In this document: positions 23,214 to 31,783 of the stretch, one piece after another
Layout of the letters: the number at the start of each line of letters is the position of its first letter
Numbering within the stretch: the stretch's first letter is position 1
Origin: Bacteroidota bacterium
GTDB taxonomy: Bacteria > Bacteroidota > Bacteroidia > UKL13-3
Assembly (NCBI GenBank): GCA_027484685.1
Contig: JAIXSO010000031.1
Coordinates: 1 to 64,000, forward strand
Direction: 5' to 3'
Length of the DNA stretch: 64,000 nucleotides
Notes under the pieces: model-generated
Database searches by the model: none
What the model was told of the DNA's origin: nothing
What the model saw: only the letters and a program-made list of their open reading frames with translations
Position numbers and translations under genes: made by a program

Positions 23214-24968
23214 TTAAAATTTTGTTACTTTATAATTGAATGTTTTATTGCCAATGGCAATATTCATAATATATAATCCTTTAGTTAAAACCGAAGGTTC
23301 AATTGAAAAATCATTGATTTGATGAGTAGCAGTAAATACCGTTTTACCTTGCAAATCAACAAACGAAACATCGAACTTTTGGTTGCTTGGCAGCTGCACT
23401 GTTAAATTTTCATTACCTAAAGCAAATCCTTCAGAATTTAAAATTTTGATGAATGACTTATCCATTATTTCATCAACCGAAACAGAATTGATAATTTTTC
23501 GGTTAAAAAAAGAATTTTTTATAGGACCATAATGGTATTTATTATATAAAATACTATCTGCTTGAATAAACAATTGTGCAAACTGAGGAATAGTCATATT
23601 GGTTTGATAAGAAGCCATGGCGGTAAGTAATAATGAAACAGTAGTATCTATTCCTATTTGCTCTGCAAAATCGGTTACAGCACCGCTCCAAATTGCGCTT
23701 AATGAGTAACGTTCCATTACAAAATCATCAACATAATTTTTGTTGTTTAAGGTGGTTCGACCATTCCAAGTTTGGTTACCATCCCAATTAAAAACTTTGC
23801 GCCAATTATAATCACTTAATTTACGTGAGTATAAAACAGCCATAATATCGCAGTTTCCTTCATCTATTCCAATACGCTCTTCACCATCAATGGTATTTGG
23901 CGCAATATAAAATCCAATGGCATGCGTATATTCATGTGTTATCACATCAGCGTCTTCGGCATCAGGTATACCGCCTATACCAAGTAACACATAAGGATTT
24001 TCAGTAGAAAATTCAAACCTAGAATTTTCACCAAAATCACCTAAAGGGTCAACCCAAAGCTGTTTCTTTAAATTATTAAAACCTAAACTTTGTATATACA
24101 TTTGATATTGATGTATATGAAACAAAGCCATTTCCTGCTTAAAAATATCGGTATTACGAGTAACCACCAAACTATCTTTAGTACTAATAGAAAAAGGAGC
24201 AGCCTTTGGACCCATTATATCTTTTACCAAAACATAATTATTTTCAGCAATAAAATTTCCAATGCTATCTAATTTCAAGTTTAGCATAAGAATTTTTCGT
24301 TCATTATTAAGCGATGGTGTATCTTGTTTGTTATAATTTAAGTAAGGAGCCACATACTCGCTGCGGGCTGTAGTTAAGGGGTCAGGATTAAATATTTTTA
24401 CCAAAGCATTGGTATCTTTTCCTGCTTTTAAACTTTTTATATTTTCAAAAAGCAATTGATTATCCAAATCAAAATATTGTTCTTTATTACCTACAATTTG
24501 TTTATTGGCAACTACTAATTTAGTACCATCAAATGCCCAAATTTGATTAGTACTAATAGCCGATGTAGGCAAGTTTATATTACGCAAATCAACTAAATCG
24601 TTAACAATATTGATTACCTGTCCGTTATTATTGATGGTAATTTTTATATTTGATTGATAGATATTTGAGCCCAAATAAGTTTGCGAAAATTGATAATGCG
24701 TACCAATTAAACTTTGATAAGTATGAACCAATTTTAAATCAACATTGCTTAGTTTTAGTTCAGTTAAATTATCTAGTAAATATTGTTTAGCTAATTGGCT
24801 TAAATCTATATTTTGCTTTGCTAATAAAGTCTTACTACTAGGCAAAACCGAAACATTAGCCATTATCAATTTGGCCTTTTTATTTTTAAAATAATTAACA
24901 AACTCAGTATTTTGAGCCTGCACCAATTGACCAATTAATAAAGCTAAAACAATGGCTAGTTTTTTCAT
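23214..24968 (-). CDS. Secreted thermolysin-like zinc metallopeptidase with T9SS type A sorting domain
   Basis: A 584-residue secreted protease. Signal peptide (1-18, ending VQAQ), N-terminal propeptide with FTP-like features (about 20-190), catalytic domain with HEYTH (His345, Glu346, His349) and the third ligand Glu370 in DEGNCD, 20 residues downstream as in M4/M36 gluzincins, then a type A sorting domain (about 510-584, ending GLYIMNIAIGNKTFNYKVTKF-like). It should be exported by the T9SS and degrade extracellular protein. Its ATG overlaps the yigZ stop by four bases, indicating translational coupling, although the operon otherwise encodes cytosolic functions. Confidence 0.85.
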   Translation of the reverse strand: MKKLAIVLALLIGQLVQAQNTEFVNYFKNKKAKLIMANVSVLPSSKTLLAKQNIDLSQLAKQYLLDNLTELKLSNVDLKLVHTYQSLIGTHYQFSQTYLGSNIYQSNIKITINNNGQVINIVNDLVDLRNINLPTSAISTNQIWAFDGTKLVVANKQIVGNKEQYFDLDNQLLFENIKSLKAGKDTNALVKIFNPDPLTTARSEYVAPYLNYNKQDTPSLNNERKILMLNLKLDSIGNFIAENNYVLVKDIMGPKAAPFSISTKDSLVVTRNTDIFKQEMALFHIHQYQMYIQSLGFNNLKKQLWVDPLGDFGENSRFEFSTENPYVLLGIGGIPDAEDADVITHEYTHAIGFYIAPNTIDGEERIGIDEGNCDIMAVLYSRKLSDYNWRKVFNWDGNQTWNGRTTLNNKNYVDDFVMERYSLSAIWSGAVTDFAEQIGIDTTVSLLLTAMASYQTNMTIPQFAQLFIQADSILYNKYHYGPIKNSFFNRKIINSVSVDEIMDKSFIKILNSEGFALGNENLTVQLPSNQKFDVSFVDLQGKTVFTATHQINDFSIEPSVLTKGLYIMNIAIGNKTFNYKVTKF

Positions 24969-29144: not shown

Positions 29145-29477
29145 TCACAAAACCAACTCCACATTTGGATCCCAAAAGTGTTTATCAAAATTTTGAATTT
29201 GGTTATTTTCAATTGTAAAACCTTCGGCTTCTAACAATTCTTGCATGGTGTTTCCGCCAAAATGGTGTTTACCAGTTAGTAAACCATTTCTATTTACCAC
29301 TCTATGAGCTGGAATTGGTGGAATTACTTGGTGGCTTGCATTCATGGCATAACCTACCATGCGGCTACTTTTGGCGCTACCTAAATATTTAGCAATTGCT
29401 CCATAACTTGTTGCTTTTCCGTAGGGAATTTGCCTAACTACATCAAACACATTTTGAAAAAAAGTGTATTTATCCAT
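29145..29477 (-). CDS. Alkyltransferase-like protein (ATL, MGMT fold without catalytic cysteine)
   Basis: A 110-residue DNA-binding protein with the MGMT C-terminal fold: IPYGKATSYGAIAKYLG, SSRMVGYAMN with the arginine finger Arg39, and IPAHRVVNRNG where the alkyl-accepting Cys of PCHRV is Ala57. ATL proteins bind O6-alkylguanine and hand the lesion to nucleotide excision repair instead of repairing it directly. Length and motif fit ATL rather than Ogt/Ada. It is the second gene of a pair, starting 9 bases after the ureohydrolase-like gene. Confidence 0.88.
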   Translation of the reverse strand: MDKYTFFQNVFDVVRQIPYGKATSYGAIAKYLGSAKSSRMVGYAMNASHQVIPPIPAHRVVNRNGLLTGKHHFGGNTMQELLEAEGFTIENNQIQNFDKHFWDPNVELVL

Positions 29478-29486
29478 TCAAAAAAA

Positions 29487-30641
29487 TTATATCAATTTTT
29501 GGAAAGCCTTAATCCATCTATCAGGAATTTCATCGGCTAAAGCAGTTTGGTAATCGCTGTAATTGCAAGGCACCATAAACGAACCTTTGTTATTGCTTCT
29601 ATCCTTTGGATATGGCACTTCCATCCACCACCTATCGCTCAACAAGTTTTTGTAAAAAGTAATATCGTAAGTTCCTTGAATGCTGGTATAATAAACCATG
29701 TAATCGTTACTTTCTTTGGTTGGATATTCAGTTTTTCTGCTACCTAATCCATCCATAAAATACCATAACATTTGTGCCACTAGCTGACTGGTTAAGTTAT
29801 TTAAATCGTTTTTAGGATTTACATTATAAATGCCAAAACTTTTTAAGTCGTTGCTCATACCAGCATATCGCGCTATTTGGCAAGCCTCTTCGCCCAAAAA
29901 TCCGTTAGCCGAAGGTGTATTTTGCCCATGTGCATCTGCTGCTTTTATAGCCGACATATTAAAAGCCATCATATCTGCATTGCGGCAAAAAGGTTCAATG
30001 TCTTTTATTTTATTTCTAAAAATTCCTAAACGCAGCATATCAAAATTCATGCGTTCAAAAGCATCATAACTTTCTGGCTCTACAAAATAACTTTGATGCC
30101 CAATGTGGGCCACGTTGAATAAATAATTTTTAGGATGCGCAATTATTCGGCTTAAATAACCTGAATTTAACTCATTATCATCATCAAATTTTAAAGCCAC
30201 CCTAGCATCGGTCAAAAGTACATTCATATTAAAATGGGTACTTTCGTAAGCAGCGTATTGTTGGTAAATAAAATCTTCGCTTGCGCCAATTACCAAACAC
30301 AACACTTTTTGTTTTAAAAGCGCTTCAATGGTTTGCCTTACCGCAAAATAAGTATCGTTAATGGTATTTCCGGCTTCAATGTTTCCTAAATCAACCAAAC
30401 GCACATCGGCCCTATGTTTAATTAATTGGTAAAATTCTTTTCTAATTTGATTAGCAGCCAAAGCCGAACCTTCAAATTGAGGATTTAACCTATCATCGCA
30501 AACGCCCAAAATAGCTATTTGAAATTGGCTTAAATTTTCGAAATTATAAGTAAATGAAGTATGATTATAAATGCTTTTAGTGCTGCAATTAGCTGCTAAA
30601 AACTGAACTATTTCAGAAGGGATTGGTTTTAAAAATTCCAT
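29487..30641 (-). CDS. Arginase/formimidoylglutamase-fold protein lacking the metal ligands (predicted pseudoenzyme)
   Basis: A 384-residue protein of the ureohydrolase superfamily by overall layout: VIGASEDF (118-124) in place of GGDHS, LLTDARVAL (142-150) in place of DAHxD, and MAFNMSAIKAADA (225-237) in place of SxDxDxxDP. Only Asp145 of the usual six manganese ligands is kept; the His of GGDH is Glu/Asp-shifted, His147 is Arg, and the DxD pair is Asn228/Ser230. Hydrolysis of a guanidino or formimidoyl group is therefore unlikely. It heads an operon with the ATL gene and may have a structural or binding role, but that is inference. Confidence 0.72.
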   Translation of the reverse strand: MEFLKPIPSEIVQFLAANCSTKSIYNHTSFTYNFENLSQFQIAILGVCDDRLNPQFEGSALAANQIRKEFYQLIKHRADVRLVDLGNIEAGNTINDTYFAVRQTIEALLKQKVLCLVIGASEDFIYQQYAAYESTHFNMNVLLTDARVALKFDDDNELNSGYLSRIIAHPKNYLFNVAHIGHQSYFVEPESYDAFERMNFDMLRLGIFRNKIKDIEPFCRNADMMAFNMSAIKAADAHGQNTPSANGFLGEEACQIARYAGMSNDLKSFGIYNVNPKNDLNNLTSQLVAQMLWYFMDGLGSRKTEYPTKESNDYMVYYTSIQGTYDITFYKNLLSDRWWMEVPYPKDRSNNKGSFMVPCNYSDYQTALADEIPDRWIKAFQKLI

Positions 30642-30754: not shown

Positions 30755-31783
30755 GTGATTTTAGTAACCGGTTCAACAGGATTTTTAGGTGCTCATATAG
30801 CTTGTTATTTGCTACAGCATCAAAAAAAAATAAAGCTAATAAAGCGTAAATCAGCTAGTTTGGCTGAGTTTGAAAAAATATTTAATTACTATTTCAAGCA
30901 TTTTAGTACTGATGCAAAAAACGCATTGTTCCAATCAATTAATTGGGCAGAAGCCGACATTTTAGATATTCCGCAACTTGAAGAAGCTTTTTCTGGAGTT
31001 ACAGAAATATATCATTGCGCTGCTATGGTAAGTTTTGCAGCAGCCGACAAAGAAAAAATGGATAAAACCAATGTAGAAGGCACAGCCAATATGGTAAACC
31101 TTGCATTGCAAAATAAAGTTGAAAAGTTTTGTTTTATAAGTTCCATAGCCGCGATTGGCCGAAGTATAAGTGGAGCTACCATTGATGAAAACTGCAAATG
31201 GGAAAACAGCAATTTAAACAGCAATTATGCCATCAGTAAATACAAAGCCGAAATGGAAGTATGGCGTGCTAAGGAAGAAGGGCTAAATGTTTGTGTAGTA
31301 AATCCTGGCGTAATTTTAGGTTATGGCGATTTTACCAAAGGCTCAATTGTATTGTTTAATTCTGTTTATAAAGGAATGCCATTTTACACCACTGGCGTTA
31401 ATGGTTATATTGATGTGCAAGATATTACCAAGGTTTGTTATCAATTAATGGAACAAAATATTTTTGGACAACGTTATATTTTGGTGAGCGAAAGTGTTAG
31501 TATTAGGCACTTATTTTTCACTATGGCTAAATACTTACAAGTGAAACCTGCTAAATTTAAAATCACCCCATTTTTAAGCGAAATAGCTTGGCGAGTATTT
31601 GCCATAGTACGTTTTTTAAAACTATCTAACTTCAGTTTAACTAAAGAAACTGCTAGGGCTTCGCAAAAGGAGTATTATTACAACAATAGTAAAATCATAC
31701 AAACGCTTCAATTTCAGTTTAAGCCTGTGGAGCAAACAGTGAAAGAAGTTTGTACACAATTTTTAATTGATTTAGAACCATAA
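30755..31783 (+). CDS. Extended SDR, NAD-dependent epimerase/dehydratase family
   Basis: A 342-residue nucleotide-sugar or sterol-type SDR. TGSTGFLG (5-12) is the cofactor loop, followed by the acidic stretch AEADILD, the CAAMVSF strand, FISSIAAIG with the active serines, and NYAISKYKAE with the catalytic Tyr/Lys. The C-terminal third is variable and does not reveal the substrate. The start is GTG; no ATG exists between it and the upstream in-frame stop at 30737-30739. It is divergent from the ureohydrolase-fold gene by 113 bases. Confidence 0.85.
   Translation: MILVTGSTGFLGAHIACYLLQHQKKIKLIKRKSASLAEFEKIFNYYFKHFSTDAKNALFQSINWAEADILDIPQLEEAFSGVTEIYHCAAMVSFAAADKEKMDKTNVEGTANMVNLALQNKVEKFCFISSIAAIGRSISGATIDENCKWENSNLNSNYAISKYKAEMEVWRAKEEGLNVCVVNPGVILGYGDFTKGSIVLFNSVYKGMPFYTTGVNGYIDVQDITKVCYQLMEQNIFGQRYILVSESVSIRHLFFTMAKYLQVKPAKFKITPFLSEIAWRVFAIVRFLKLSNFSLTKETARASQKEYYYNNSKIIQTLQFQFKPVEQTVKEVCTQFLIDLEP

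Follow-up and report, generated by a model that had tools for sequence, protein, structure and literature searches.

A ureohydrolase-fold gene with altered metal motifs

The window, i.e. the whole stretch of 64,000 nucleotides analysed here, carries at positions 29487-30641 on the minus strand an ORF of 384 aa, with an ATG start and a frame open up to its stop. Its product matches the Pfam Arginase family (PF00491) with 55.9 bits, for a cut-off of 22, and no signal peptide was apparent by eye at its N-terminus. Nine bases downstream on the same strand lies a gene coding for an alkyltransferase-like (ATL) protein (29145-29477; PF01035, 84.6 bits), in which PAHR presumably stands where alkyltransferases have their catalytic Cys. 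On the other side, a divergent gene of the SDR family (epimerase-like; 30755-31783, plus strand) is also a frequent neighbour in closer relatives. Farther along the window, a putative metallopeptidase of 584 aa (23214-24968, minus strand; HEYTH) has a tail that we take to resemble a sorting domain of the T9SS, the motor for secretion and gliding in Bacteroidota, whose cytoplasmic control is little understood. The window itself may hold T9SS cargo in the form of this metallopeptidase.

The window protein was aligned with two members of the same superfamily encoded in its own genome, an agmatinase and an arginase (L001 and L002, names assigned by reading the sequences). Whereas both of these keep all six metal ligands (H, D, H, D, D, D), the window protein keeps one. 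Its first motif, IGASEDF, starts at residue 118, and the GASED part (residues 119-123; 30273-30287, minus strand) places E122 at the first His ligand. The second, LTDARVA, starts at residue 143; in DARVA (residues 145-149; 30195-30209, minus strand) D145 is kept, R147 stands for His and A149 for Asp. The third, AFNMSAI, starts at residue 226, and FNMSA (residues 227-231; 29949-29963, minus strand) has N228 and S230 in place of the DxD pair. Where a binuclear ureohydrolase has H, DxHxD and DxD, the ligand columns of the window protein read E, D, R, A, N, S. The earlier note had described three altered motifs (GASED, DARVA and FNMSA) and a single remaining ligand of six, and the alignment agrees with it on both points.

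The nearest profile is that of formimidoylglutamase (HutG, TIGR01227), which 31 of 33 family members match at E ≤ 0.001. The window protein differs from HutG, however, by the missing ligands, by an added C-terminal extension and by its score of 63.5 bits, far under the equivalog cut-off of 229.15. HutG is also the nearest fold for the predicted structure: the AlphaFold2 model (pLDDT 92.7, pTM 0.92) has as its best structural match a formiminoglutamase, 4myn (Z 37.0 over 277 residues, 2.0 A, spanning residues 19-303), and matches a second HutG-type structure, 3m1r, with Z 34.7. Metformin hydrolase chains are matched with Z 33-34, and among the 50 structural matches listed, with Z from 27.8 to 37.0, all belong to the ureohydrolase superfamily. 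The window protein is thus predicted to have the ureohydrolase fold, and both the Pfam score and the fold match place it in that superfamily.

Residues 304-384 (29490-29732, minus strand) lie outside the matched fold. This extension of about 80 residues is common to all 33 aligned members, and carries 6 of the 20 invariant columns of their alignment, compared with none of the 20 in the three metal motifs. A separate model of the extension was weaker (pLDDT 78.8), and Foldseek returned no match for it at E ≤ 0.001. A known fold could not be assigned to it either by VIA-align, the best match (2een, Z 4.0, 65 residues, 3.9 A) being too weak for a model with such a pLDDT. This absence of matches does not show that the extension has a new fold.

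A class-wide family lacking the binuclear site

Of 40 relatives, 38 have a homologue of the window protein; G009, a member of the genus (91% complete), gave no match. Within the genus, the median dN/dS of the gene is 0.08 (9 sequences, 32 of the 36 pairs having a computable dS), a value similar to those of its neighbours (SDR, 0.087; ATL, 0.10). The gene is under purifying selection within the window's genus, and it is a full-length ORF, as the earlier note had held when it called the gene intact and selected. Because homologues are present in so many relatives and dN/dS is so low, the gene is not a product of chance or decay; a decayed pseudogene was ruled out by this ratio and by the ligand pattern of the whole family, described below.

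A profile built from 33 members was then run against 198 genomes drawn evenly from the class; it matched 189, of which 184 at E < 1e-40. Outside the class, matches were weak (best 2.4e-24 in a draw of 395 phylum genomes), and five of them, taken as an outgroup, keep five or six ligands and are devoid of the C-terminal extension. Ligands were counted in 185 non-identical family sequences, a set that excludes the five outgroup rows and in which the alignment of a few short or very divergent members is uncertain. Four ligands are kept in 19 sequences, three in 102, two in 30, one in 32 and none in 2. The maximum is therefore four and the commonest count three, and no member of the 185 keeps five or six. 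Family members with normal ligands alongside a decayed window copy, one of two outcomes that the earlier note had named as speaking against it, are absent from these 185; since no member keeps five or six ligands, the window gene is no isolated case of decay in an otherwise intact family. The wording of that note, "nearly all" ligands stripped, fits the window's genus; in the wider family three ligands are most often left. As far as binuclear ureohydrolase chemistry is concerned, there is good support, at the level of sequence, for regarding the family as a pseudoenzyme that spans the class. One family ORF (L052) has 562 aa, compared with the usual 385 or so, and represents either a fusion or a mechanical start call.

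The residues still present raise the question of a remaining activity, by which the protein would act on another substrate through a mononuclear metal site or metal-free chemistry. Such a possibility draws on the second, fourth and fifth ligand columns (D2, D4 and D5), which are Asp in 172, 142 and 127 of the 185 sequences respectively, and on the 16 of 185 in which the A site (H, D, D, D) is complete. On the other hand, the first His ligand is Q in 113 of the 185, and the second is K or R in 98, a side chain that would probably fill the metal site rather than hold a metal. The last Asp is retained in only 7 of 185. Closer to the window, the first Asp of the DxD pair (D5) is Asp in none of 42 relatives, while it is kept in L160, which belongs to the window's taxonomic family but is less closely related. 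We regard a residual enzyme as unlikely.

A second way of accounting for a metal-free arginase fold is that of a silent subunit of an active ureohydrolase. The precedent is MetCb of metformin hydrolase, which according to excerpts of one report has the arginase fold, is metal-free with five of six ligands changed, and acts as a protein binder, its partner being MetCa (PMC11271267). The likeness extends to the Z of 33-34 between our model and metformin hydrolase chains, and the window genome encodes two intact ureohydrolases. Unlike MetCb, however, which is encoded beside its active homologue, the window gene has no active arginase-fold gene next to it, the other two Arginase genes of the genome being on other contigs. 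Moreover, among 12 genomes picked for having few or weak matches, the family gene is the sole Arginase-family match in 8 (G137, G176, G540, G456, G521, G564, G447 and G580, of which two are rated 100% complete and two under 70%). Because the gene stands alone in these 8 of the 12 picked genomes, the MetCb model cannot be general, and an obligate partnership with an active ureohydrolase was ruled out as a rule for the family. As an explanation for the family, a silent subunit is thus very improbable.

Gene neighbourhoods in the genus and across lineages

The earlier note had seen a concrete lead in the pairing with the ATL gene, and the gap of nine bases between the two genes (ATL at 29145-29477) was confirmed. 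ATL adjoins the ureohydrolase-fold gene in 9 of the 9 genus members having the latter, but in none of the 13 members outside the genus that could be assessed in its taxonomic family, so that the pairing is a matter of the genus and is not found across the family. The wider comparison relied on 131 loci, after 19 with short flanks had been removed from 150 non-redundant ones scoring 150 bits or more. Most of them were fetched by likeness to the window protein, and for this reason its relatives are over-represented. ATL is adjacent at 7 of these 131 loci, all 7 from the window's genus; being confined in this way, it was ruled out as a general functional partner. The SDR gene is more widespread: of the 23 members of the taxonomic family that were examined, 19 have it next to the ureohydrolase-fold gene, and it is upstream and divergent at 41 of the 131 loci. 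Its orthologue at one locus (L020) matches TIGR03466 with 163.6 bits, under the cut-off of 367.65.

In many other lineages, the gene has a different setting: miaB comes first, followed by a sigma-54-type regulator (named by eye), topA, the ureohydrolase-fold gene, porP and/or gldK, then gldL, gldM and gldN. Names were given by NCBIfam on one representative each, all above cut-off (GldK 598.5 bits, PorP 272.2, GldL 245.7, GldM 334.2, GldN 281.3, topA 708.7). Among the 131 loci, 45 are flanked on the same strand by topA upstream and by T9SS genes downstream, 12 have topA only and 2 T9SS genes only; 34 have SDR, 7 SDR together with ATL, and 31 (including one outgroup, L162) none of these named neighbours. 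At the level of genomes, gldL lies 2.1-5.4 kb downstream of the ureohydrolase-fold gene in 73 of 124 class genomes, and on the same strand in 73 of these 73. The 124 are those of the 198 for which best places were listed for both genes, and in some of the other 51 the linkage is possibly split by contig ends. The gene is thus encoded with T9SS core genes across lineages. Flavobacterium records, as we take it, name it formimidoylglutamase and have it near gldK. In L154, L177 and L178, short and very divergent members (277, 335 and 278 aa) are convergent to a gldK, which porP adjoins in two of the three; proximity to the T9SS is kept there in another orientation.

The window genome departs from this arrangement. 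Its T9SS core sits on a separate contig (G000:C14) and has kept miaB and the regulator close by; a stretch of 19.9 kb around it contains neither topA nor the ureohydrolase-fold gene. Four genes lie there between the sigma-54-type regulator and porP (L223, 12956-17053), at the place which topA and the ureohydrolase-fold gene occupy in other lineages. In a quick tree, T9SS-linked members are found on most deep branches, where support is low (in the whole tree it is weak for 42 of 85 inner branches, and some of the long ones are perhaps misplaced). An ancestral linkage with the T9SS would fit this tree.

The same neighbourhood speaks for another partner. In the main rival to a T9SS role, the protein would work with DNA topoisomerase I, the topA-gene pair being the functional unit and the T9SS genes mere downstream neighbours. 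TopA is encoded upstream on the same strand at 57 of the 131 loci, usually within about 150 bases or overlapping. It is as good a neighbour as the T9SS genes, given the 12 loci with topA alone compared with 2 for the reverse, and this, together with the split in the window genome, weighs against tying the gene to the T9SS. In the window's genus, moreover, the gene again adjoins a DNA-damage gene, ATL. Against a bond with topA, no topA lies within the stretch in any of the 23 examined members of the taxonomic family (mostly 1.5 kb on each side).

Presence with the T9SS and a candidate role

GldL was found in 187 of the 198 class genomes and in 137 of 149 genomes drawn from one order; the ureohydrolase-fold family was detected at E < 1e-40 in 103 of these 149, and more weakly in 8 more. 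SprA was sought in 28 chosen genomes, and is present in the three that have the family gene in the absence of GldL (G506, G561 and G566). Both markers are missing from 13 genomes, some of them incomplete (G569, 56%; G672, 74%), and the family gene is missing from 12 of these 13, with shared ancestry uncorrected, although topA is nearly universal in bacteria. The exception, G467, keeps topA and the adjoining ureohydrolase-fold gene without GldL or SprA, as expected if the unit were the pair. With a threshold of E < 1e-40 and ancestry ignored, the family gene is present in 103 of 141 genomes with a T9SS marker and 0 of 8 without in the order draw (Fisher p 5e-5), and in 183 of 192 compared with 1 of 6 in the class draw (p 5e-6). 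We consider a TopA-linked role, overall, to be somewhat unlikely.

The reverse dependence is not strict. In the order draw, 38 of the 141 genomes with a T9SS marker are without the family gene at E < 1e-40; two of these, G590 and G706, give partial and weaker matches that extend to the C-terminus. Eleven stretches from gene-less genomes were inspected, and one (L230) was excluded for having no T9SS core genes. In all 10 others the core genes are present (one without a recognised porP), and neither topA nor the ureohydrolase-fold gene is in the stretch. Since many genomes with a T9SS lack it, the gene is not needed for secretion as such. At L225, from a T9SS genome without the ureohydrolase-fold gene, an open frame of 2881 aa matches the gldK profile, and is unusually long for GldK.

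We also compared evolutionary rates along branches. In two of the three sets of genes compared, the ureohydrolase-fold gene covaries most strongly with gldL (0.40 for 38 loci, 0.47 for 31 loci), which is a hint only. In a 17-locus set that includes miaB, covariation is 0.24 with gldL, -0.06 with the cytoplasmic part of GldL and 0.49 with topA; for topA, values of 0.31 and 0.49 in two sets, which favour the pair with topoisomerase, go with 0.21 in the third. The measure is noisy, because topA and gldM, an implausible pair, correlate at 0.58 (31 loci), probably by noise. As the three overlapping sets disagree, rate covariation was dropped as a means of choosing between GldL and TopA.

Our best reading, with a probability of about 0.45, is that the product of the family gene is cytoplasmic and catalytically dead, and serves the T9SS as an accessory or a regulator. 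A formimidoylglutamase-like ureohydrolase would have gained the C-terminal extension, lost its binuclear metal site and been kept for binding. The order with topA first, then the ureohydrolase-fold gene, porP and/or gldK, gldL, gldM and gldN may be ancestral, and the protein would act on the cytoplasmic side as a T9SS accessory or regulator. In the window lineage, the gene is located apart from the T9SS cluster and its erosion has gone further, while selection on it persists.

A cytoplasmic T9SS accessory has a precedent, because GldL has a large cytoplasmic part, as stated in excerpts of PMC12239597, and PorX is reported to bind there, the contact with the cytoplasmic domain of GldL being described, in the excerpted text of PMC10951265, by bacterial two-hybrid. 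Like PorX, our protein would be a cytoplasmic-side protein linked to the T9SS; unlike it, PorX consists of CheY-like and PglZ domains, and its contact with GldL was measured, whereas for the ureohydrolase-fold protein we infer it. By this analogy, the likeliest docking site would be on the motor protein, in the cytoplasmic part of GldL, as for PorX on PorL/GldL. The old substrate pocket may be empty, or may sense a small molecule. A more specific version, in which the protein binds GldL at its cytoplasmic part and tunes secretion or gliding as a ligand-sensing regulator of the rotary motor, with a metabolite derived from arginine or histidine in the old pocket, is speculative and, as we see it, improbable as a whole.

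The protein could alternatively act in the topA-T9SS region as a metabolite or transcriptional factor with no physical link to either product. The gene does remain constrained where it is distant from the cluster, as such a factor would allow, but no DNA-binding domain was found by Pfam in the 33 members scanned. This we see as a fairly remote explanation, and a protein working with the T9SS on its cytoplasmic side is still the one we favour.

In open-licence PubMed Central, a collection without bioRxiv and most subscription papers, no paper dealing with the ureohydrolase-fold gene, or linking it to the T9SS, was found. If the T9SS reading is true, a class-wide protein whose gene often stands just ahead of the T9SS core would be a testable new accessory part, and the family would join MetCb as a natural example of an arginase fold retained for binding. 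The gene is an unsafe basis for inferring histidine degradation; in NCBIfam, the family (33 members) matches only enzyme families such as HutG.
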